From Microbacteriaceae bacterium PS02333 (GTDB taxonomy: Bacteria; Actinomycetota; Actinomycetes; Actinomycetales; Microbacteriaceae), in the NCBI GenBank assembly GCA_029959665.1, contig JASCOI010000001.1:1-64000 (forward strand): 64,000 nucleotides of DNA, given 5' to 3'. The notes beneath the pieces were generated by a model. That model saw nothing but the letters and a program-made list of their open reading frames with translations. It did not search any database and was not told the DNA's origin. Both the position numbers and the translations under genes were made by a program. Positions 2,840 through 13,495 of the stretch are shown piece by piece (position 1 is the first letter of the stretch; every line of letters begins with the position of its first letter).

Positions 2840-3358
2840 TCAGGACGTGCGGGCCACCGCAACCCGGCCGGAGCCCGTCAGCGTTCCCGGACCGATGCAC
2901 GTGTCCCCGAACGCGAGCGATCGCCCGTCACATCGGACGTCGCCGTCGAGCAGGACCACGGCGAGCGCGTCGGCGCCCGGCGAGCACGACCCGGCGACGG
3001 TCTCGACGCACAGGTCGGGTCGGCCCACCCCACGGCGGACCATGAGGTTGAGGTCGTACGCGGCCTCGGTCACCCTGACGGCTGCGACCGCCGACTCCCC
3101 CGCGAAGGCGATGGCGTCGTACTGCCCGAGCACCGTGCGGACGCCGTCCACGTCGAGCACGAGCCCGTGCTCACCGAGGGCCACGAGCATCCGGTCCACG
3201 CCGGGCAACCGGGAGAACGGCGCCGACGAACCCACCGTCGCGATGCTGAGCCGCACGTCGAAGTCCCCCGCTGACGGCGTCCGCCAGAGCTCCACGGTCT
3301 CCCCGAGTCCGTTCGCCCACCGGGCCGACCCGGTCTCGGCGAAGCGGACGAGCGTCAC
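2840..3358 (-). CDS. hutD: HutD family protein
   Basis: A 172-residue cupin-like HutD/Ves protein: WANGLGETVELWR near the start, then SIATVGSSAPFSRLPGVDRMLV and later FAGE. HutD is a conserved companion of histidine-degradation genes. In pseudomonads it has been proposed to limit the pathway by binding an intermediate, but no enzymatic reaction is established. The GTG start overlaps the stop of the upstream MFS gene (GTGA), making it the last gene of the iclR-hutH-MFS-hutD operon. At 172 residues it is near the usual length. Confidence 0.85.
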   Translation of the reverse strand: MTLVRFAETGSARWANGLGETVELWRTPSAGDFDVRLSIATVGSSAPFSRLPGVDRMLVALGEHGLVLDVDGVRTVLGQYDAIAFAGESAVAAVRVTEAAYDLNLMVRRGVGRPDLCVETVAGSCSPGADALAVVLLDGDVRCDGRSLAFGDTCIGPGTLTGSGRVAVARTS

Positions 3359-4698
3359 GCGAGTCCCTCGTCATCGAGCGACGTGTGCGAGGTCTCCGGC
3401 GCGAGCAGGATCGACACGACCATGCCGACGACGAGCACTGCGGCGAGGGCGAGCAGCGTCGCGCTGATGCCCCACCCGGCGAGCGTGATCGGCAGCAGGA
3501 AGGTGCCGATCGCCGACCCGATGCGGCTCACCCCGTTGAGGAGGCCGACGCCGGCCGCGCGGACGTTCGTCGGGAAGAGCTCAGGCGGGTAGACCTGGTC
3601 GAGGTTCGAACTGCCCGACATCACGAAGGTGAAGACCAGGAACGGCGGGAGCACCACCCAGACCGGTGCGTGGCTGCCGAGCGCGACCACGGCGAGCGCG
3701 ACGGCCATGATGCCGAACGTCCAGATCACGAGCGGACGACGACCGATCCTGGCGACCGCCCAGAGTCCCGCGATCCCGCCCAGCAGCAGGAACACGTTGA
3801 GCAGCAGTCCTGACGCGAACCCGTCGGCGTCCATCCCGAGACTCAGCAGGATGACGGGCAGGAACGTGTAGATCGCGAAGTACGGGATGACCTGCGCGTT
3901 GTAGAACACGGTGCCGAAGACGGTCCGCCGCAGGTTCCGACCGGTGAAGAGGTCCCGGTAGCGACCGGGGCGCGCGGTCGAGTGCGTCGCCGCCACCGCG
4001 TCGACGTCGAGTTGTCCCGGCAGGTACTTCGCGACGATCGCGCGGGCTTCCTCGATGCGGCCCTTCGTGATCAACCACCGCGGTGACTCCGGCGTGCCGA
4101 CCCGCAGGATGAGCACGACGATGGCCGGGATCGCGCCGCTCGCGAGCAGGAAGCGCCAGCCGAGGTCGGACGGGATCGTGCTGATCCAGGTGCCGATGAA
4201 GTACGCCGCCGTGTACCCGACGGTCCACGCGACGGTGAGCGAGGCGAGGAGGCCGCCGCGGAAGCGTGCCGGGACGAACTCGGCGACGAGGGTCGGCCCG
4301 AGCGCGTAGTCCGCGCCGACGCCGAAGCCGATGAGCAGGCGCAGCACGAACAGCGACACGGGTTCGTGCACGAAGAACTGCGCTGCCGACGCGACGACGA
4401 TGAGCACGAAGTCGAGCATGTAGATGAGTCGGCGGCCGAACAGGTCGCCGAGCCACCCGCACGTGATGCTGCCGACGAAGATGCCGATGAGCACCGAGCT
4501 GGCGATGAGGCCCGACCACAGGGCGTCGACGTGCATGCCGGGGCCGATGAGGGTCAGGGCGATCCCGATGCTGCCGAGGGCGTAGCCGTCCGAGAAGTTC
4601 GCACCGAAGGTGAGCGCGGTGATGCGGAGGTGGAAGCGGCTGAGCTTCTCGGGACGGTCCTGGTGCACCGCGGGGGTGCCGGTCGAGGACGATGTCAT
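3355..4698 (-). CDS. MFS transporter in the hut operon (histidine or urocanate uptake, putative)
   Basis: A 447-residue, 12-helix major facilitator of the sugar/aromatic-acid symporter type. The loop motif GDLFGRRLIYMLDF sits between helices 2 and 3. PESPRW follows helix 6, and PELFPTNVRAAGVG precedes a late helix, as in the sugar-porter/AAHS families. Its ATG overlaps the hutH stop (ATGA) and its stop overlaps the hutD start, so it is translationally coupled to both. From that context it most likely imports histidine, urocanate or a related imidazole. Hut loci often use APC or BCCT carriers for this, so an MFS carrier here is a plausible substitution. Confidence 0.85.
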   Translation of the reverse strand: MTSSSTGTPAVHQDRPEKLSRFHLRITALTFGANFSDGYALGSIGIALTLIGPGMHVDALWSGLIASSVLIGIFVGSITCGWLGDLFGRRLIYMLDFVLIVVASAAQFFVHEPVSLFVLRLLIGFGVGADYALGPTLVAEFVPARFRGGLLASLTVAWTVGYTAAYFIGTWISTIPSDLGWRFLLASGAIPAIVVLILRVGTPESPRWLITKGRIEEARAIVAKYLPGQLDVDAVAATHSTARPGRYRDLFTGRNLRRTVFGTVFYNAQVIPYFAIYTFLPVILLSLGMDADGFASGLLLNVFLLLGGIAGLWAVARIGRRPLVIWTFGIMAVALAVVALGSHAPVWVVLPPFLVFTFVMSGSSNLDQVYPPELFPTNVRAAGVGLLNGVSRIGSAIGTFLLPITLAGWGISATLLALAAVLVVGMVVSILLAPETSHTSLDDEGLA

Positions 4699-6230
4699 GG
4701 TGCTCCGATGGTCGGTGTTCCCGTGATCTCGATGAGCTCGTCCGAGCAGACCAGGGCGTAGAGGGTCTCGATGTCCTCGCCGAACGCACGGTCGTGTTCG
4801 GCGAAGGGGACGTCACGGCGGACGCGGGTCCGGACGGCGGCGAGCGCCGGGGAGCTCGCGTCGATCGAGTCGAGGAGGTCGGTGGCCTGTGCGGCGGTGA
4901 GCAGCTCGATCGCGAGCACGTACCGGAGGCGGTCCACAGTACGGGTCGCTTGCTGGGTGGCGAGGTACGCGTTGCTGATCGGGTCCTCCTGTCCGGCCGA
5001 CGTGGGGATCGAGTCGATCGTCGCCGGGGACGCCTCGCCGCGGATCTCCATCACGAGGGCGGCGGCGGTGTACTGCGGGATCATCAGACCGTTGTCGAGC
5101 CCCGGGTTCCTGGCCAGGAACGGCGGCAGTTCGCTGACCGTGCTGTTCACCATGCGGTCGACCCGGCGTTCGCTGTGGTGGGCGAGGACCGCGGCTGCGG
5201 CCTTGAGCGAGTCCATCGCGAGGCCGATCGACGTCGCGTCGAAGTTCCCGCCCATCACCGCGTCACCGTCACCGCTGCCGTCGCCGAACAGCACCGGGTT
5301 GTCGCCGAGGGAGCCCAGGGCTTCGTCGACGATCGTCGCGGCGTCGCCGAAGGCCCGTGCGACGGACCCGTGCAGCTGGGGCATCGCACGGATCAGGTAG
5401 GGGTCCTGCACGCGGTGGTCCCGGTGCCGCTCGGCGAGGGAGCTGCCGTCGAGCAGCCGCGCGATGGTGCTGGCCGACCGCTGCTGCTCGGGGGCGCGGC
5501 GGAGCGCGTGCAGGCGCGGGTCGAGGGCCCTGGTGGTGCCGCGGAGCGCCTCGAACGACAGCGCGCCGACCACGTCCGCGTGCCGCAGTGCGCTCGTGGC
5601 GTCGTGCACGGCGAGGGCGGCGATGCCGGTGACGCTCATGATGCCGTTGAGGAGCGTCAGCCCCTCCTTGGCCTCGAGCCGGATGGGCGACAGTCCCACG
5701 GCGTGCAGCGCGTCCGCCCCCGGGAGCACCGCGCCGCCGACCCGGGCGCGCCCGCGACCGATCAGGACGAGGGCGATGTGCGCCTCGAGCGCGAGGTAGC
5801 CGAGGGAACCCGAACCGGGCACGACCGGCGTGACGCCGCGGTTCAGCACCTCGCGGACGAGTTCGAGGGTCTGCAGGCGTGTGCCGGAGAACCCGCGACC
5901 GAGGTGTCCGAGCATCGTGACGAGGATCGCCCTGACCTGTTCGTCGGGGATCGGCGTGCCGACGGACACGGCGTGGGACGCGATGATGTTCTCCTGGAGC
6001 CGCCGGGTGTCCTCCGGTGAGATCGTCTCGGTGTAGTTGTCGCCGAACCCCGTCGTGACGCCGTAGACCACGCGCCGGTCGGCGACGAACTTCGTCACGA
6101 GTGCCGCCGCGGCGTCGACCCGGGCTTCGTACGCGGCCGAGAACGAGACCGCGGCGCCGTGCCTGGCGACGGCGACGACCTGCTCGATCGACAGTTGCGC
6201 GTCGTCGAGGTGCACATCGGTGGGCTGCAT
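4695..6230 (-). CDS. hutH: Histidine ammonia-lyase family protein lacking the MIO tripeptide
   Basis: A 511-residue member of the HAL/PAL lyase family, whose HutH members convert L-histidine to urocanate. Counterparts of known active-site residues are present: Tyr56 in VYGVTTGFG, Asn195 in LLNGIM, Tyr278 and Arg281 in DPYLIR, SERR, and the QED motif near the C-terminus. The cofactor site is missing. The family reads GSVG-ASG-DLAPLAH; here GSLG (141-144) is followed directly by YLALEAH (145-151). The Ala-Ser-Gly that cyclises to methylidene-imidazolone is deleted with the frame intact. QED is followed by Pro instead of the common His. Operon context supports a histidine role, but the chemistry cannot be the standard one. 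It may use another mechanism or substrate. Confidence 0.8.
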   Translation of the reverse strand: MQPTDVHLDDAQLSIEQVVAVARHGAAVSFSAAYEARVDAAAALVTKFVADRRVVYGVTTGFGDNYTETISPEDTRRLQENIIASHAVSVGTPIPDEQVRAILVTMLGHLGRGFSGTRLQTLELVREVLNRGVTPVVPGSGSLGYLALEAHIALVLIGRGRARVGGAVLPGADALHAVGLSPIRLEAKEGLTLLNGIMSVTGIAALAVHDATSALRHADVVGALSFEALRGTTRALDPRLHALRRAPEQQRSASTIARLLDGSSLAERHRDHRVQDPYLIRAMPQLHGSVARAFGDAATIVDEALGSLGDNPVLFGDGSGDGDAVMGGNFDATSIGLAMDSLKAAAAVLAHHSERRVDRMVNSTVSELPPFLARNPGLDNGLMIPQYTAAALVMEIRGEASPATIDSIPTSAGQEDPISNAYLATQQATRTVDRLRYVLAIELLTAAQATDLLDSIDASSPALAAVRTRVRRDVPFAEHDRAFGEDIETLYALVCSDELIEITGTPTIGAP

Positions 6231-6263: not shown

Positions 6264-6926
6264 TCAGCGGGCGGGTTCGTACACCGACGCGGCTTCGCGG
6301 ACGAGCCAGCCGCCGATCCGGGCGACGTCGTCGGTGGTGGTCAGGCGGTAGCTCGGGACCAGGCAGGACATCGCGGCGACGACCCGGCTGCCGGCGGAGA
6401 TCGGCACGGAGACCGCGGTGACGTCCTTCTCGGCGCCCTCGACGACCACGACGTACCCGTCGGGCCCGACGTCGCCGAGCAGGACCCTGCCGACCGCCGT
6501 GTCCTCCACGGGGATGGCGCGCCCGACCCAGCCGACGTGTCGGATGGACTGCGTGCCCTCCGCGATCGCGAGGTGCACCGCGGTGTTCCCCGTCCCGAAG
6601 ACGCTGAGGTAGCAGGACTCGGTCGTGCCGTCCGCGACACGTCGCATCGCATCGCGGGCCTGGACGACCAGGGCCGTGTTCGAGAGTGCTGCGGCGCCGA
6701 GCTGCACGAGGTGCGGGCCGGCGGTGAACAGCCCGTCCTCGTCGCGGCGGACGAACTCGTGCGACTCGAGCGCCCGGAGCAGTCGGAGCGCCGTGCTCGC
6801 GGACAGGTCGGCGCGCCGTGCGACCTCGGTGAGGGTGAGTCCGTCGGCGTCGCACACCAGCCCGAGCAGGCGGAGCGCTCGGTCGATCGTGCGCATGCCG
6901 GGCCCGCCGGTGGGTTCCTGCTCCAT
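6264..6926 (-). CDS. IclR family transcriptional regulator, hut operon-linked
   Basis: A 220-residue IclR regulator: an N-terminal winged helix (TIDRALRLLGLVCDADGLTL, then VARRADLSASTALRLLRAL) followed by a ligand-sensing domain with SCYLSVFG, VGRAIPVEDTAVGRVLLG and SAGSRVVAAMSC. It is the first gene of the operon and lies 33 bases upstream of hutH. The likely ligand is histidine, urocanate or a later intermediate (inference). A second IclR gene lies just upstream in the same orientation, so the locus has two related sensors. Confidence 0.9.
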   Translation of the reverse strand: MEQEPTGGPGMRTIDRALRLLGLVCDADGLTLTEVARRADLSASTALRLLRALESHEFVRRDEDGLFTAGPHLVQLGAAALSNTALVVQARDAMRRVADGTTESCYLSVFGTGNTAVHLAIAEGTQSIRHVGWVGRAIPVEDTAVGRVLLGDVGPDGYVVVVEGAEKDVTAVSVPISAGSRVVAAMSCLVPSYRLTTTDDVARIGGWLVREAASVYEPAR

Positions 6927-6996: not shown

Positions 6997-7770
6997 TCAC
7001 TTCTGTGCCGGACCGTCCGATCCGCCGATCCGCCGCGACAGCTCCCCCGCGACGCGCGTCACCTCCTGCACCAGCCCGTCCGGGGGCGTGCCGTCGTCGT
7101 CGGACCGGTACGTGCACGCCACGCTCGCAACCGGCCACCTGCTCCCGTCGAGCACGGCCACGCCGACCGAGGCGAGTCCCTGCGTGACGGCGCCGACCTC
7201 GGTGGCGACCCCTGCCTCCCGGATCGCTGCCAGCTCGGCCCGGAGCGCACGACCGTCGGACGGCCCCGTGCCGGTCCGCGACACGAACGCCGAGTCGGAC
7301 GGGTACAGCGCACGGAGCTGTGCCGGTGGCAGCGCGGCGAGCATCGCCTTCCCGCTCGCGGTGAGGTGCGCCGGCAGCCGGACCCCGACCTCGGTGATGA
7401 GCGTCGGCCGGTGCCGCGCGCGCTCCTCGACGACGTACACGACCTCGGCGCCGTGCATGACCGCCAGGTGGGCGCTCTCCCCGGTCCGGTCCACCAGGGT
7501 CGCGAGCAGCGGTGCGCCGAGCAACGAGAGCGGCTGCTGGCGCGTGAACCCGGACCCGAGCTCGAACGACGCGAGGCCGAGCGCGTACCGCCGGCTCTCG
7601 GCGAGGTGGATCACGAACCCGTGGTCGACCAGCGTGGCCAGCAGTTGGTACACGGTGGAACGCGGGAGTCCGAGCCGCGTCGCGATGACGGCCGCCGCCA
7701 TCGGACCACGCTGTGCGCCGAGCACGGTCAGGATGCGCAGCGTCGAGTCCGCCGCAGGGGCCTTGGGCAC
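6997..7770 (-). CDS. IclR family transcriptional regulator, divergent from hutU
   Basis: About 257 residues. The winged helix includes [16 protein letters not shown] and [20 protein letters not shown]. The effector domain has [18 protein letters not shown] and ends in [13 protein letters not shown] choose the GTG at 7770 because GGGAGGA lies just before it and the helix-turn-helix begins at the usual distance. An upstream GTG at 7815 would add 15 residues and place a 20-bp inverted repeat inside the gene. It is transcribed away from hutU and is a candidate activator or repressor of the right arm of the hut locus. Confidence 0.88.
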
Positions 7771-7795
7771 GGTCCTCCCGTCGCCGCCGGGTTTC

Positions 7796-7815
7796 GTGTC
7801 CGGTATCCCGGACAC
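7796..7815. promoter_or_regulatory. Candidate IclR operator: 8-4-8 inverted repeat
   Basis: The arm GTGTCCGG at 7796-7803 is matched by its exact reverse complement at 7808-7815 across a 4-bp spacer. It lies 26-45 bp upstream of the preferred iclR start and 146 bp upstream of hutU, where an autoregulatory site would be expected. Confidence 0.5.
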
Positions 7816-7960: not shown

Positions 7961-9646
7961 ATGACCCCCACCGGACAGCCCACCCCGAGCACGGTCGGCG
8001 CCCGCCCCGTCCGTGCGGCCCGCGGCACGGAGCTCAGCGCGAAGAGCTGGCAGACCGAGGCACCGTTGCGGATGCTGATGAACAACCTCGACCCCGAGGT
8101 CGCGGAACGCCCGGACGACCTCGTCGTCTACGGCGGCACCGGCCGCGCCGCCCGCAGCTGGGAGGCGTTCGACGCGATCGTGCACGCACTCCGCGACCTG
8201 GAGTCCGACGAGACGCTCCTGGTGCAGTCCGGCAAGCCCGTCGGGATCTTCCGCACGCACGAGTGGGCGCCGCGGGTGCTCATCGCGAACTCGAACCTCG
8301 TCGGCGACTGGGCGACGTGGCCCGAGTTCCGCAAGCTCGAGGCGGAGGGCCTGACGATGTACGGGCAGATGACCGCGGGTTCGTGGATCTACATCGGCAC
8401 GCAGGGCATCCTGCAGGGCACCTACGAGACCTTCGCCGCCGTCGCCGACAAGCGGTTCGGGGGCACCCTCGCCGGCACGATCACGCTCACCGGCGGCTGC
8501 GGCGGCATGGGCGGCGCACAGCCGCTCGCGGTGACGCTCAACGGCGGCGTCGCCCTGGTCGTCGACGTGGACGCGAGCCGTCTGCAGCGCCGCGTCGAGC
8601 ACCGGTACCTCGACGAGATGACGGACGACGTCGACGACGCGATCGAGCGGGTCACCCGCGCGAAGGCGGAGCGACGGGCGCTCTCGGTCGGGCTCGTCGG
8701 CAACGCGGCCACCGTCTTCCCCGAGCTCCTCCGGCGCGGCGTCGCGATCGACGTCGTCACCGACCAGACCAGCGCGCACGACCCGCTGAGCTACCTGCCG
8801 GAGGGCTACGACGTCCCGACGTGGCACGACCGCGCCGAGCAGGACCGCGACACGTTCATCGACGACTCGCGCCGGTCCATGGCGAAGCAGGTCGAGGCGA
8901 TGGTCGGGTTCATGGACGCGGGCGCCGAGGTCTTCGACTACGGCAACTCCATCCGGCGCGAGGCCGAGCTCGCCGGCTACGACCGCGCGTTCGCGTTCCC
9001 CGGCTTCGTGCCCGCCTACATCCGCCCGCTCTTCGCCGAGGGCAAGGGCCCGTTCCGCTGGGCGGCCCTGTCCGGCGACCCCGCCGACATCGCGGCGACC
9101 GACCAGGCGATCCTCGAGCTCTTCCCCGAGGACGAGAAGCTCCGCCGCTGGATCACCTCGGCGTCCGAGAAGGTGCAGTTCGAGGGGCTCCCCGCACGCA
9201 TCTGCTGGCTCGGCTACCAGGAGCGGCACCTCGCCGGCCTGAAGTTCAACGAGCTCGTCGCGAACGGCACGATCTCCGCACCGATCGTCATCGGCCGCGA
9301 CCACCTCGACTCCGGATCGGTCGCGTCCCCCTACCGCGAGACCGAGTCGATGCGGGACGGCTCGGACGCGATCGCCGACTGGCCGCTCCTGAACGCCCTG
9401 CTCAACACCGCGTCCGGGGCGACCTGGGTGTCCATCCACCACGGCGGCGGCGTCGGCATCGGCCGGTCCATCCACGCCGGGCAGGTGATCGTCGCGGACG
9501 GCACGGACCTCGCCGCGGAGAAGATCGCCCGCGTGCTGGTGAACGACCCGGGCACCGGTGTGATGCGCCACGTCGACGCCGGCTACGAGCGTGCCGAGGA
9601 GGTCGCCCGCGAACGTGGCCTCCGCGTCCCCATGTGGGAGGTCTGA
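7961..9646 (+). CDS. hutU: Urocanate hydratase
   Basis: A 561-residue urocanase converting urocanate to 4-imidazolone-5-propionate with tightly bound NAD+. The NAD-binding stretch [19 protein letters not shown] lies near residues 180-200. The catalytic-cysteine region LPARICWLG and the family block [19 protein letters not shown] are intact, as is [17 protein letters not shown] near the end. Length is normal. The ATG follows AAGGAG by a good distance. It is first gene of the right hut arm, with the M20 hydrolase starting two bases after its stop. Confidence 0.97.
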
Positions 9647-9648
9647 GC

Positions 9649-11328
9649 ATGACCGACTCGGGCGCGACGGTCCTCCCGGGGTTGGCCGAGATCGCCGAGG
9701 TCGGGCGGGACACCGTCCGCGGCGGGTACTCCCGGCACCTGCTCGACGACGCCGAGCGCGACCTCCGCGACTGGTTCGTCGAGCGGGCGGAGCGCCTCGG
9801 CCTCGACGTCGAGCACGACCGGAACGGCAACACCTGGGCATGGTGGGGCGCACCGGGGCCCGATGCGTTCGTCACGGGCTCGCACCTCGACTCGGTCCCC
9901 GGCGGCGGCGCCTTCGACGGCCCGCTCGGCGTCGTCTCGGCGCTCGACGCCGTCGTGCGTCTGCAGCAGGAGGGGCACCGCCCGTCGCGACCGACGGCGA
10001 TCGCCGTCTTCGCCGAGGAGGAGGGCGCACGCTTCGGTGTCGCCTGCCTCGGGTCGCGCCTGCTGAGCGGTGCCATCAGCCCGGAACGCGCGCTCGCGTT
10101 GACCGATGCGGACGGCACCAGCCTGGAGGCAGTGCTCGCCTCCGCCGGCATCGACCCGTCCGCCGTCGGTCCGGATCCGGATCGTCTGGCCGGCATCGGC
10201 ACGTTCGTCGAGCTGCACGTCGAGCAGGGGCGCGGACTCGTCGACCTCGGGTCGCCCGTCGCGCTCGCGTCGAACATCCTCGGGCACGGCCGCTGGCGCT
10301 TCCGGTTCTCCGGGCAGGGCAACCACGCGGGCGCGACGCTCATGAGCGACCGGCGTGACCCGGTCGTCGCGGCCGCAGCAGCCATCGCCGCCGTGCCCGG
10401 GATCGCCCGTGCCGCGGCGGACGCCCGAGCGACGGTCGGACGACTCCGAACGGTCCCCGGCGGGACGAACGTGATCGCGTCGACCGCCGAGTTCTGGCTC
10501 GATGCCCGAGCCGGCGAGGACACCGTGACCCGCACCGTCGTCGAGGCGATCGCCGCCGCGGCCGAGGACGCCGCCACCGCGAACGGCTGCACACTCGAGG
10601 TGACCGAGGAGTCCTGGTCGAGCCGCGTCGACTTCCCGGAGGGGCCGCGGGCAGCGATCGACCGCGTGCTCGCGGGGGACGTCCCCGTGCTCTCCACGGG
10701 CGCCGGCCACGATGCCGGGGTCCTCTCCGCGCACGTCCCGTCCGCGATGCTCTTCGTCCGGAACCCCACCGGCGTCTCGCACGCGCCGGAGGAGTGGTCG
10801 GACGCCGACGACTGCGCCGCCGGGGTCGAGGCACTCACGACCGTGATGCGGGCGTCGACGTCACCGGCGGCACCGCGGGTGCGGCCGCGGTCCACTGCAG
10901 GACCGCGGTCGTCGACGGCGTCGCACGGTCCGACGTCCGCCTCGACGTCGACGGGGCTGGTCGCATCACCGCAGTGGCAGTCGGAGTCTCGCCCCGCGTC
11001 GGGGACCTGCGGCTCGGCACCGTCCTCGCCGGGTCCGGCAACGCCCACTCGCACGCGTTCCACCGGGTGCTCCGCGGGCGGACCCACGCGGACGGCGGCG
11101 ACTTCTGGCAGTGGCGCACCGCGATGTACCGCACCGCCGCAGCCCTCGACCCGGACACGTACCGCCGACTCGCGGTCGGCGCCTTCGCGGAGATGGTCGC
11201 CGCCGGTTGGACCGCCGTCGGGGAGTTCCACTACGTGCACCACCGCCCCGACGGGTCCCGGTACGACGACCAGAACGCCGTCGGGCTGGCCCTCGCCGAC
11301 GCCGCGCGCGAGGTCGGCATCCGCCTGA
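9649..11328 (+). CDS. M20 family amidohydrolase (allantoate amidohydrolase-like), stop codon apparently lost
   Basis: A zinc-dependent M20/hydantoinase-carbamoylase family enzyme of about 404 functional residues. The metal-site motifs are GSHLDSVPGGGAFDGPLG, FAEEEGARFG and ELHVEQG. The substrate-side block is GGTNVIASTAEFWLDARAG, and the last conserved motif is STGAGHDAGVLS. Homology ends at about 10860, but the frame runs on to 11328 through sequence that clearly encodes the next gene in another frame. A single C-to-G change at 10862 would restore a TGA stop here. In a hut operon using HutF but without HutG, this enzyme is the best candidate to hydrolyse N-formylglutamate (inference). Confidence 0.85.
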   Translation: MTDSGATVLPGLAEIAEVGRDTVRGGYSRHLLDDAERDLRDWFVERAERLGLDVEHDRNGNTWAWWGAPGPDAFVTGSHLDSVPGGGAFDGPLGVVSALDAVVRLQQEGHRPSRPTAIAVFAEEEGARFGVACLGSRLLSGAISPERALALTDADGTSLEAVLASAGIDPSAVGPDPDRLAGIGTFVELHVEQGRGLVDLGSPVALASNILGHGRWRFRFSGQGNHAGATLMSDRRDPVVAAAAAIAAVPGIARAAADARATVGRLRTVPGGTNVIASTAEFWLDARAGEDTVTRTVVEAIAAAAEDAATANGCTLEVTEESWSSRVDFPEGPRAAIDRVLAGDVPVLSTGAGHDAGVLSAHVPSAMLFVRNPTGVSHAPEEWSDADDCAAGVEALTTVMRASTSPAAPRVRPRSTAGPRSSTASHGPTSASTSTGLVASPQWQSESRPASGTCGSAPSSPGPATPTRTRSTGCSAGGPTRTAATSGSGAPRCTAPPQPSTRTRTADSRSAPSRRWSPPVGPPSGSSTTCTTAPTGPGTTTRTPSGWPSPTPRARSASA

Positions 11329-12272
11329 CCCTGCTCGACACCTGCTACCTCACCGGAGCGCCGGGGCAGCCCCTCGCGGGGGAGCAACGCCGGTTCGGCG
11401 ACGGGTCGGCGGCGGCATGGCTCGACCGCTGGCACGGCCTCCGAGCCGCGGTCGGCGACGACCCGCTCGTGACGGTCGGCGCCGCGGTGCACTCCGTCCG
11501 CGCCGTCGTACCCTCCGACGTCGCGGTGATCGCGAGCGGGCTCCCCGAGGACGTCCCGCTCCACGTGCACCTGTCCGAGCAGCCCGCCGAGAACGAGCAG
11601 AGCGTCACCGCCTACGGTGTCCGCCCGACGCGGGTGCTCGCCGACGCCGGGGCGCTCGGTCCTCGGCTGAGCGTCGTGCACGCCACGCACCTGACCGATG
11701 ACGAGATCGTCCTGCTGGGGAACGCCGGCGTCTCCGCGGTGCTCTGCCCCACGACCGAGGCGGACCTCGGCGACGGCATCGGTCCGGCCAGGCGGCTCGC
11801 CGACGCCGGTGCGACCATCGCGCTCGGGTCCGACCAGAACGCCGTCGTCGACCCGTTCCTCGAGGTCCGCGGGCTCGAGGCGGGCGAACGCCTCCACGCC
11901 CGGCAGCGCGGGGTCTTCTCCCCGCGGGAGCTCGACGCCGCGCGGTCCACCGCCGGCTACCGAGCCCTGGGCGTCACCGGGGGCATCCGCGTCGGCGCCG
12001 TGTGCGACCTCGTCGAGATCGACCCCGCGACCGTCCGCACCGTCGGCGCCCGGCCGGAGCAGCTCCTGCTCGCGGCGACGGCGTCCGACGTGCTCCGGGT
12101 GGTCGTGGGTGGCCGGGTCGTCGCCGACCGCGGCGTGCTCGTCGACGGCCGCTCCCCCGCGGTGCTGCTCCACGACGCGATCGACGTGATCGACTCGACC
12201 GACCCGACCAACGCTGCCGACTCTGCCGAACCGACCGACCCGATCGACCCGACGAAGGGACCGCGCGCATGA
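10860..12272 (+). CDS. hutF: Formimidoylglutamate deiminase, start codon apparently lost
   Basis: A 470-residue amidohydrolase-superfamily enzyme converting N-formimino-L-glutamate to N-formyl-L-glutamate and ammonia. It shows the metal motif GSGNAHSHAFHRVLRGRTH, GEFHYVHH, the third-strand histidine in VHLSEQ, and GSDQNAVVDPF. The coding signal begins at about 10860, yet the frame has no ATG, GTG or TTG there. The nearest upstream is GTG 10794, deep inside the M20 gene. C-to-G at 10862 would create GTG exactly there, as a GTGA overlap. The C-terminus is an Asp/Thr/Pro-rich tail (DSTDPTNAADSAEPTDP). The stop overlaps the hutI ATG. Confidence 0.85.
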   Translation, partial: VTGGTAGAAAVHCRTAVVDGVARSDVRLDVDGAGRITAVAVGVSPRVGDLRLGTVLAGSGNAHSHAFHRVLRGRTHADGGDFWQWRTAMYRTAAALDPDTYRRLAVGAFAEMVAAGWTAVGEFHYVHHRPDGSRYDDQNAVGLALADAAREVGIRLTLLDTCYLTGAPGQPLAGEQRRFGDGSAAAWLDRWHGLRAAVGDDPLVTVGAAVHSVRAVVPSDVAVIASGLPEDVPLHVHLSEQPAENEQSVTAYGVRPTRVLADAGALGPRLSVVHATHLTDDEIVLLGNAGVSAVLCPTTEADLGDGIGPARRLADAGATIALGSDQNAVVDPFLEVRGLEAGERLHARQRGVFSPRELDAARSTAGYRALGVTGGIRVGAVCDLVEIDPATVRTVGARPEQLLLAATASDVLRVVVGGRVVADRGVLVDGRSPAVLLHDAIDVIDSTDPTNAADSAEPTDPIDPTKGPRA

Positions 12273-13495
12273 CGAGCGAACTCGTCACGGACATCGGCGA
12301 ACTCCGCACGATGGACCCGGCGGACGCCGACGGCCCCGGCACGTCCGACGCAGCCGCCGCGTCCGTCGTCCGCCGCGACCACGCCGTCGTCGTCGAGGAC
12401 GGCCGCATCGCGTGGATCGGCCCGGCAGCCGACGCTCCCCCCGCCGACCACCGCACGAGCGTCGGTGGCCGCGCCTGCATGCCCGGCTGGGTCGACTCGC
12501 ACACGCACCTCGTCTTCGCCGGCGACCGCTCGACCGAGTTCGTGGACCGGATGGCCGGGCGCCCGTACGAGGCGGGCGGGATCATGACCACGGTCGCGGC
12601 GACCCGGAACGCGACCGACGACGAGCTCGGCCGGAGCGGCGCGGCCCTCGTCGACGAGGCCGTCGCACAGGGCACGACGACGATCGAGGCCAAGACCGGC
12701 TACGGCCTGGACGTCGACACCGAGCTCCGGCTCGCCAGGATCGCCGCACAGGTCGCGGACGTCGTGACCTTCCTCGGCGCCCACGTGGTGCCACCGGGAG
12801 TCGATCGGCGGACCTACCTCGACCTCGTCACGGGCCCGATGCTCGACGCCGTCCGCCCCCACGTGGGGTTCATCGACGTCTTCTGCGAATCGGGAGCGTT
12901 CTCCCCCGACGAGGCGCGTGCGGTGCTCCTCGCCGGCCGCGCAGCGGGACTCGGGCTCCGGGTGCACGGCAACCAGCTCGGCGAGACCGGCGGCGTCGCG
13001 CTCGCCGTCGAGCTCGGCGCAGCGAGCGTCGACCACTGCAACCACCTGTCGGCGACGGACGTCGACGCGCTCGCGGGGTCCGACACGATCGCCACCCTGC
13101 TGCCGGCGTGCGACCTGTCGACCAGGGCGCCGTTCGCGCCGGCACGAGCACTGGTCGACGCCGGAGCCCGCATCGCACTCGCGTCGAACTGCAACCCGGG
13201 CACGTCCTTCACGTCGTCGATGCAGTTCCAGGTCGCCACCGCGGTGCTCCAGCAGCGACTCACGCTCGAGGAGGCGCTCGGTGCGGCGACCCTCGGTGGC
13301 GCGGCAGCGCTCCGCCTCGACACCGGATCCGATGCCGTCGGCAGCATCCGCGTCGGCGGGCCGGCCGACCTGCAGGTGATCGACGCGCCGACGGCCGCAC
13401 ACATCCCCTACCGGATCGGCACGCCGCTGACCGCCGCCGTCTGGCGACGCGGCCGACGGACCACCGGGGTCACCGCCTTGGGCGGGCCCCGGTAG
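12269..13495 (+). CDS. hutI: Imidazolonepropionase
   Basis: A 408-residue amidohydrolase that opens 4-imidazolone-5-propionate to N-formimino-L-glutamate. The metal motif DSHTHLVFAGDR lies near residue 76, followed by IEAKTGYGLD, LGAHVVPP, LRVHGNQL and the late block ALASNCNPGTS, all family landmarks. The ATG overlaps the hutF stop (ATGA). It is the last gene of the right arm, separated by only five bases from the convergent oxidoreductase gene, with no evident terminator between them. Confidence 0.96.
   Translation: MTSELVTDIGELRTMDPADADGPGTSDAAAASVVRRDHAVVVEDGRIAWIGPAADAPPADHRTSVGGRACMPGWVDSHTHLVFAGDRSTEFVDRMAGRPYEAGGIMTTVAATRNATDDELGRSGAALVDEAVAQGTTTIEAKTGYGLDVDTELRLARIAAQVADVVTFLGAHVVPPGVDRRTYLDLVTGPMLDAVRPHVGFIDVFCESGAFSPDEARAVLLAGRAAGLGLRVHGNQLGETGGVALAVELGAASVDHCNHLSATDVDALAGSDTIATLLPACDLSTRAPFAPARALVDAGARIALASNCNPGTSFTSSMQFQVATAVLQQRLTLEEALGAATLGGAAALRLDTGSDAVGSIRVGGPADLQVIDAPTAAHIPYRIGTPLTAAVWRRGRRTTGVTALGGPR

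Follow-up and report, generated by a model that had tools for sequence, protein, structure and literature searches.

Microbacteriaceae bacterium PS02333 has a lyase of the HAL/PAL family that lacks the residues that form the electrophilic MIO group, and to judge from its sequence and genetic setting the enzyme most likely makes urocanate from a substrate other than histidine. We propose, tentatively, that it is an MIO-independent hercynine (N-alpha-trimethyl-histidine, histidine betaine) trimethylamine-lyase, an assignment that we regard as quite possible, though short of probable. The gene is at 4695..6230 on the (-) strand of the window, by which we mean the whole 64,000-nucleotide stretch that was analyzed (contig JASCOI010000001.1, positions 1 to 64,000).

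The MIO-forming residues are absent from an otherwise HAL-like lyase

The open reading frame translates, with no internal stop, into a 511-amino acid protein of family PF00221 (516 bits vs. a cut-off of 27.3). Its loop GSLGYLALEAH (residues 141-151; 5778..5810, (-) strand) is three residues shorter than GSVG-ASG-DLAPLAH of Pseudomonas putida HAL, with Tyr145 at the site. In an alignment with solved HALs, the shortfall maps to Ala142-Ser143-Gly144-Asp145 of the P. putida enzyme. The placement of the gap depends on the aligner: MAFFT sets Tyr145 under Ala142 and removes Ser-Gly-Asp, and a gap that removes Ala-Ser-Gly and changes Asp to Tyr fits equally well. Under either placement the MIO triad is absent from the translated protein. 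The preliminary description of this DNA had reported a HutH-family lyase missing the MIO-forming triad in an intact frame, and the translation and the alignment with P. putida HAL bear this out. It had also raised the possibility of missing codons that resequencing would reveal. We ruled out sequencing error as the source of the deletion; the deletion and the residues that follow it are identical in independent assemblies and species, recurring in two further Curtobacterium genomes, C. pusillum and C. flaccumfaciens (the latter a frameshifted assembly), at a protein identity of about 72%. An AlphaFold2 model of the lyase made from two sequences was unusable (mean pLDDT of 33.4). Judged from the alignment, Tyr145 would be close to the amine site.

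The other active-site residues of HAL are retained. The counterparts of Tyr53, Asn195, Tyr280 and Arg283 listed in the preliminary description were found by alignment to be Tyr56, Asn195, Tyr278 and Arg281, and those of His83, Gln277, Phe329, Met382 and Glu414 (HAL numbering) are also present. All eight HutH residues tested (Tyr53, His83, Asn195, Gln277, Tyr280, Arg283, Phe329 and Glu414) are thus kept. The lyase shares with P. putida HAL and other HutH proteins (TIGR01225; PDB 1gkm) its PF00221 membership, these remaining active-site residues and neighboring hutU, hutF, hutI and hutD genes. In contrast to HutH, it has no Ala/Cys-Ser-Gly (three residues are absent and Tyr145 is there instead) and therefore lacks MIO of the known type. 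It is also under the cut-offs of both HutH models (TIGR01225, 496.5 vs. 539.15; PRK09367, 509.9 vs. 524), and a normal HutH exists elsewhere in the same genome.

The lyase gene is in a hut locus

The lyase gene is in a full hut locus, as had been described, with hutU, hutF and hutI each over an NCBIfam cut-off and HutD over that of Pfam. Two genes for IclR-type regulators, the lyase gene, an MFS transporter gene and the HutD gene are on the (-) strand, and hutU, an M20 amidase gene, hutF and hutI are divergent on the (+) strand. The regulator genes are at 6264..6926, 33 bases upstream of the lyase gene, and at 6997..7815; for both, the best models are IclR-type, under their cut-offs. At its start, the MFS transporter gene (Sugar_tr; 3355..4698) shares 4 bases with the end of the lyase gene, and the gene for the HutD family protein (2840..3358; PF05962, 106 bits) likewise overlaps the stop of the MFS gene by 4 bases.

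The divergent genes begin with hutU (urocanate hydratase; 7961..9646, start inferred; TIGR01228, 908 bits), followed by the gene for an M20 amidase of the allantoate amidohydrolase/hydantoinase-carbamoylase type (9649..10845; NF006770, 577.6 vs. a cut-off of 372). The open reading frame of hutF (formimidoylglutamate deiminase; 10794..12272), the true start of which is probably later, is over the cut-off of NF006681 (527.8 vs. 362) and under that of TIGR02022 (398.1 vs. 413.05), and hutI (imidazolonepropionase; 12269..13495, start inferred) is over the cut-off of TIGR01224 (338.6 bits). The frame of the M20 amidase has no stop ahead of hutF and is open into hutF to 11328, which points to loss of the stop or to an erroneous base.

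The gene order is common to the window, C. pusillum and C. flaccumfaciens. Identities between the window and C. pusillum are 73% for the lyase, 81% for the MFS transporter and 92% for HutU. The window hydratase is a true HutU, with thiourocanate hydratase models under their cut-offs (NF058530, 648.7 vs. 930).

The genome also encodes an MIO-type HutH

There are two PF00221 genes in the source genome (4.17 Mb in 322 contigs, estimated to be 100% complete). The second (G000, contig C272, 14361-15857) is of the CSG type, with the loop GSLGCSGDLAPLAH. Aligned with the window lyase, the comparison is GSLG-CSG-DLAPLAH vs. GSLG-YLALEAH, three residues fewer in the latter. The second protein is over both HutH cut-offs (624.8 for TIGR01225 and 673.8 for PRK09367); an MIO-type HutH elsewhere in the genome, the presence of which had been suggested as a check, was therefore found. 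The genome's one hutU and its one over-cut-off hutI are both beside the MIO-less gene and not the HutH gene on C272, and in C. pusillum and C. flaccumfaciens an MIO-type lyase is likewise elsewhere and the sole hutU is beside the MIO-less gene. Because hutU is single and the MIO-type HutH is located apart from it, both lyases are expected to feed one urocanate pathway.

In one search, 3 of 36 Curtobacterium genomes (PS02333 included) had a lyase match. PS02333 and one other (G026) have the MIO-less gene plus an MIO-type gene, and the third (G029) has the MIO type alone (a CSG HutH at C1:2093634-2095118). No hutU match was found anywhere in G029, and urocanate may be an end product in that strain. 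In Curtobacterium and other actinobacteria, MIO-type HALs have Cys-Ser-Gly in place of Ala-Ser-Gly (for example, L001 1456-3003), and the first MIO residue is Cys in 18 of the 55 MIO-type rows of our alignment.

The same loop is found in other phyla, often near hut genes

We use GYL for proteins with the loop motif GS-x-G-YL, in which three residues are missing and Tyr is at the site; the label is defined by this motif alone, and all 11 labeled proteins have it. The sequence GS[LVA]GYL was read in these 11; the C. flaccumfaciens copy, which is frameshifted, would make twelve and was kept outside the counts. The 11 are the window lyase and its relatives in C. pusillum (L003), on a Deltaproteobacterium Smac51 plasmid (L005; 47% identity), on plasmids of Priestia (L006; 42%), Klebsiella (L031), Agrobacterium (L034), Rhizobium (L036, L090 and L101) and Burkholderia (L047), and on an IMG/VR (viral) contig (L097). 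In a survey of Actinomycetota, 137 of 396 genomes matched at 1e-40, and we read the loop in the 29 best-scoring new foreign loci; none of the 29 had the GYL loop (27 ASG, one SSG and one ACG), and lower-ranked loci could differ. Relatives from Fusobacterium and Cetobacterium are of the MIO type, not GYL.

The GYL proteins differ from each other at several active-site positions. Tyr280 and Phe329 are as in HAL in the window lyase, L003 and L005 only, and the other 8 of the 11 have Leu280 and no Phe329; the window subgroup may therefore differ in substrate from the other GYL proteins. HAL positions 382/386 are Met/Tyr in 10 of the 11, including the window lyase, as in the genome's own HutH. Elsewhere they are Gln/Leu (L034), Gly/Lys (Treponema denticola ergothionase) and Met/Val (P. 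putida HAL). HAL position 62 is Asn in the window lyase, L003, L005, L006 and ergothionase (6s7j), and Leu in the other seven GYL proteins and in 47 of the 55 MIO-type rows.

Several GYL genes have hut neighbors. Next to the Priestia gene are hutU and hutI, two MFS genes and one gene of the agmatinase type; next to the Klebsiella gene are hutU, hutI, hutF, hutC, hutD and an ABC transporter. The hydratases at the C. pusillum, Priestia and Klebsiella loci are, like that of the window, true HutU proteins below the thiourocanate hydratase cut-offs. Two Rhizobium loci (L036 and L090) have hutI and hutF nearby, and L036 also has a normal ASG hutH next door. The proteins from L006, L031, L036 and L090 are annotated as 'hutH' or 'aromatic amino acid ammonia-lyase' and have the same loop as the window lyase and hut genes beside or near them, but they are 37-42% identical to it, are mostly accompanied by other transporters, and have Leu at HAL position 280. 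Within the fetched stretches, no matches to the window HutU, HutF or HutI were found near L005, L097 or L101, and the only hut neighbor of the Burkholderia gene was annotated as hutC.

Relatives at least 95% identical to the Klebsiella GYL lyase (L031 7977-9509) were counted in 163 plasmid records (108 + 55 of 230 matched), among which the loop itself was read in L031 alone. The lyase gene is inside a plasmid hut locus in L031 and L103.

Ergothionase and an Agrobacterium cluster as precedents

A HAL relative without MIO is known. T. denticola ergothionase is such a relative, which releases trimethylamine from ergothioneine (PMC13405746). The preliminary description had mentioned that MIO-less HAL homologs exist, and ergothionase is one (PMC13405746; PDB 6s7j). 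Its loop (SSIG-EG-DITTLSH, taken from the alignment) is one residue short, which is not the change seen in the window lyase. The two proteins (ergothionase from PDB 6s7j/6s7q) are both HAL relatives without MIO and share Asn at HAL position 62 and the counterparts of Tyr53, His83, Gln277, Arg283 and Glu414. They differ in that Lys383, Gly379 and Leu277 of ergothionase correspond to Tyr387, Met383 and Tyr278 of the window lyase, and in that ergothionase acts on a thio-imidazole and has a different type of loop.

One GYL protein is among genes for the use of ergothioneine. The cluster on Agrobacterium plasmid pAtAF1_95 (L034) encodes proteins over the cut-offs for ErtD (783.6 vs. 600), ErtE (578.2 vs. 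520) and S-methyl-thiourocanate hydratase (976.5 vs. 880), as well as an OpuAC (betaine) binding protein. This stretch (L034 1-9491) and L102 also hold genes for a molybdopterin S/N-oxide reductase, a GST and a betaine-type ABC transporter. Going by the names of the NCBIfam models, the L034/L102 cluster is a probable ergothioneine-derivative pathway, the first step of which would lose trimethylamine. A GYL enzyme, that of L034, thus probably releases trimethylamine. The L034 lyase has the same GS-x-G-YL loop as the window lyase and is 35% identical to it, but it has Gln/Leu at HAL 382/386, Ert genes and a betaine-type ABC transporter, whereas the window has Met/Tyr, HutU and an MFS transporter. 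This contrast within the family at 382/386 rests on one GYL protein, L034.

A proposed hercynine trimethylamine-lyase

The ergothionase precedent, the L034 cluster, Met/Tyr at HAL 382/386 and the true HutU together point to a sulfur-free substrate with a good leaving group. A substrate that is histidine-like on the imidazole side and betaine-like on the amine side, and that yields urocanate, would be hercynine. Hercynine is a precursor of ergothioneine. In the proposed scheme, trimethylamine would be eliminated from hercynine to give urocanate, which would then be degraded by the products of the divergent hutU-M20-hutF-hutI genes. By analogy with HAL, the carboxylate would be held by Arg281, Asn195 and Gln275, the plain imidazole by a HAL-like pocket of Met383, Tyr387 and Glu415, and the beta proton would be taken by Tyr56. 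MIO in HAL helps ammonia leave; a quaternary ammonium would depart unaided, making the electrophilic MIO dispensable. With the MIO loop gone, N(CH3)3 would have space, in a pocket that the new Tyr145 may line. Uptake of the substrate would fall to the MFS transporter encoded in the same string of genes. We infer the substrate, the product, the import and every catalytic step of this scheme.

EgtD was not matched in a profile search of the window's genome, a search in which 0 of 14 control genomes passed the cut-off and which therefore had no true positive control. Given no EgtD match, hercynine would have to come from outside the cell. The proposal is further supported by the location of the single hutU and the over-cut-off hutI, which are with the MIO-less gene and apart from the normal HutH, by Asn at HAL position 62, shared with ergothionase, and by the 4-base overlaps that link the lyase, MFS and HutD genes. 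Against it, Tyr280 and Phe329 are as in HAL, and no trimethylamine-use gene was found among the identified neighbors of the lyase. Among the matches listed in the open-access literature, we found no report of hercynine catabolism or of a hercynine lyase.

More broadly, and with somewhat greater reserve than for the window lyase itself, we suggest that hercynine trimethylamine-lyases without MIO might be a second entry to histidine utilization, encoded both chromosomally and on plasmids in bacteria from plants, soil and animals, and mostly annotated as hutH, with MIO having been lost because a quaternary ammonium leaves unaided. If this is true, many 'hutH' genes in databases, some of those carried by Rhizobium and Priestia plasmids among them, do not encode histidine ammonia-lyases, bacteria have a further source of trimethylamine, and there is a clear testable rule that no MIO means a quaternary ammonium leaving group.

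Transporters and binding proteins near GYL genes

The window MFS transporter is 50% identical to the MFS transporter beside the GYL lyase on the Priestia plasmid, and its highest bit scores are with Priestia MFS genes (best 30 of 65 records). Among these best 30 of 65, the MFS gene is directly beside a 'hutH' match in 12 of 13 Priestia records, the thirteenth (H151, 46%) not being adjacent; of the twelve, L006 is the one record in which the GYL loop was read. No lyase match was found within 7 kb of five MFS relatives on other plasmids (40-50% identity, H151 included), and in the three of these five records that carry gene names, other metabolic genes surround the MFS gene. The link between MFS and lyase is not specific and serves as a hint only. 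The closest solved structures to the window MFS are sugar porters, and OCTN2 scores 60.9 bits, matches that do not decide the substrate. We set aside the window MFS as proof of substrate, given its lyase-free relatives. On a Priestia plasmid (L093 4163-8365), a gene related to that of the window MFS is accompanied by an IclR gene, a 'lyase family protein' gene and two dehydrogenase genes, a catabolic unit of similar layout.

The binding proteins vary. That of the Klebsiella cluster belongs to the quaternary-amine family (PF04069) and matches EgtUC (84 bits). An aromatic cage has been described for EgtUC (PMC9732360). On our manual assignment along the alignment, the cage residues face V, D, L and Q in the L031 protein, which seems to be without an aromatic cage, arguing against a betaine ligand there. 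We had considered this OpuAC protein as support for a betaine, and the non-aromatic residues at the cage positions weaken it in that role. In L036 (Rhizobium) and L047 (Burkholderia), the clusters have amino-acid-type (SBP_bac_3) binding proteins, which also weigh against the hercynine proposal.

Alternative substrates and functions

The same MIO-free elimination to urocanate might start from another histidine derivative, such as N-alpha,N-alpha-dimethylhistidine or another N-substituted histidine. The true HutU and the loss of MIO fit such a substrate equally well, and the binding proteins of several GYL clusters, which are not of the quaternary-amine type or are without the cage, are in its favor. 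So is solA (N-methyl amino acid oxidase-type), which is after the GYL lyase gene in L036 and is absent from L090. However, the closest functional precedent, ergothionase, releases trimethylamine, and a quaternary ammonium departs more readily than a primary, secondary or tertiary amine. We consider another derivative unlikely.

It is no likelier that the protein is catalytically dead, has a binding or regulatory role, or acts on an unrelated imidazole (for example, in isomerization of cis-urocanate). The known catalytic group is lost and the gene is placed with regulators and HutD, as might be expected of such a protein. However, counterparts of Tyr53, His83, Gln277, Arg283 and Glu414 are present in all 11 GYL proteins, these proteins occur in several phyla, and dN/dS between the window and C. 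pusillum lyases is about 0.35 by a simple counting method, indicating constraint on the protein; the HutU ratio, computed over too long a frame, was disregarded.

An ergothionase function for the window lyase, with ergothioneine or an oxidized or methylated form of it as substrate, is doubtful, less probable than either of these. Ergothionase is MIO-less, as is the window lyase, and is homologous to it, and a GYL protein (L034) sits among ergothioneine-use models. But the closest solved structure to the window lyase is P. putida HAL (295.9 bits vs. 173.8 for 6s7j), and Lys383 of 6s7j (HAL 386), which we take to be catalytic, is Tyr387, with Met383 retained. The neighboring enzymes also argue against it: the adjoining hydratase is HutU (908 bits) and not a thiourocanate hydratase, a pairing judged by the name of the NCBIfam model, the window HutI scores just 19.4 bits with the ErtD model, and the M20 protein is under the ErtE cut-off (267 vs. 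520).

Deamination of L-histidine without MIO, one of two readings in the preliminary description, would fit the remaining HAL residues and the hut locus but is very improbable, since the genome has a complete MIO-type HutH and since blocking MIO formation in a related enzyme, RxPAL (S153A), caused a practically total loss of activity (PMC3903478). The other reading, a different role with the true HutH elsewhere (that on C272), stands as far as sequence allows and can be narrowed to an MIO-independent lyase that expels a better leaving group.

Relationships among MIO-less lyases

The GYL rows were together (SH-aLRT 83) and apart from the ergothionase group in a 69-row tree made without the loop columns. 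This tree used only matches spanning at least 380 query residues and left out duplicates (L007, L025 and L051), frameshifted copies (L029, L030 and L050) and a divergent one (L023). In a smaller, more careful tree, from which 20 further rows were removed (nearly identical copies, plus three very long ones), all MIO-less rows fell to the same side of a weakly supported branch (76/57). The GYL proteins formed one group in only 25% of 200 bootstrap trees, and constraining them to be together was not rejected (AU p 0.58). The trees are compatible with either one or two losses of MIO. L096-L101 were outside both trees, and L097 and L101 were included in the residue comparison.

There is a further MIO-less type, in which the loop is one residue short (GSIGAADLAPLAH and similar), in L035 (5953-7458), L033, L027 and L028. 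For the L035 protein, T. denticola ergothionase is the best match among solved structures, and its gene adjoins hutC and a gene for a glycine betaine binding protein.
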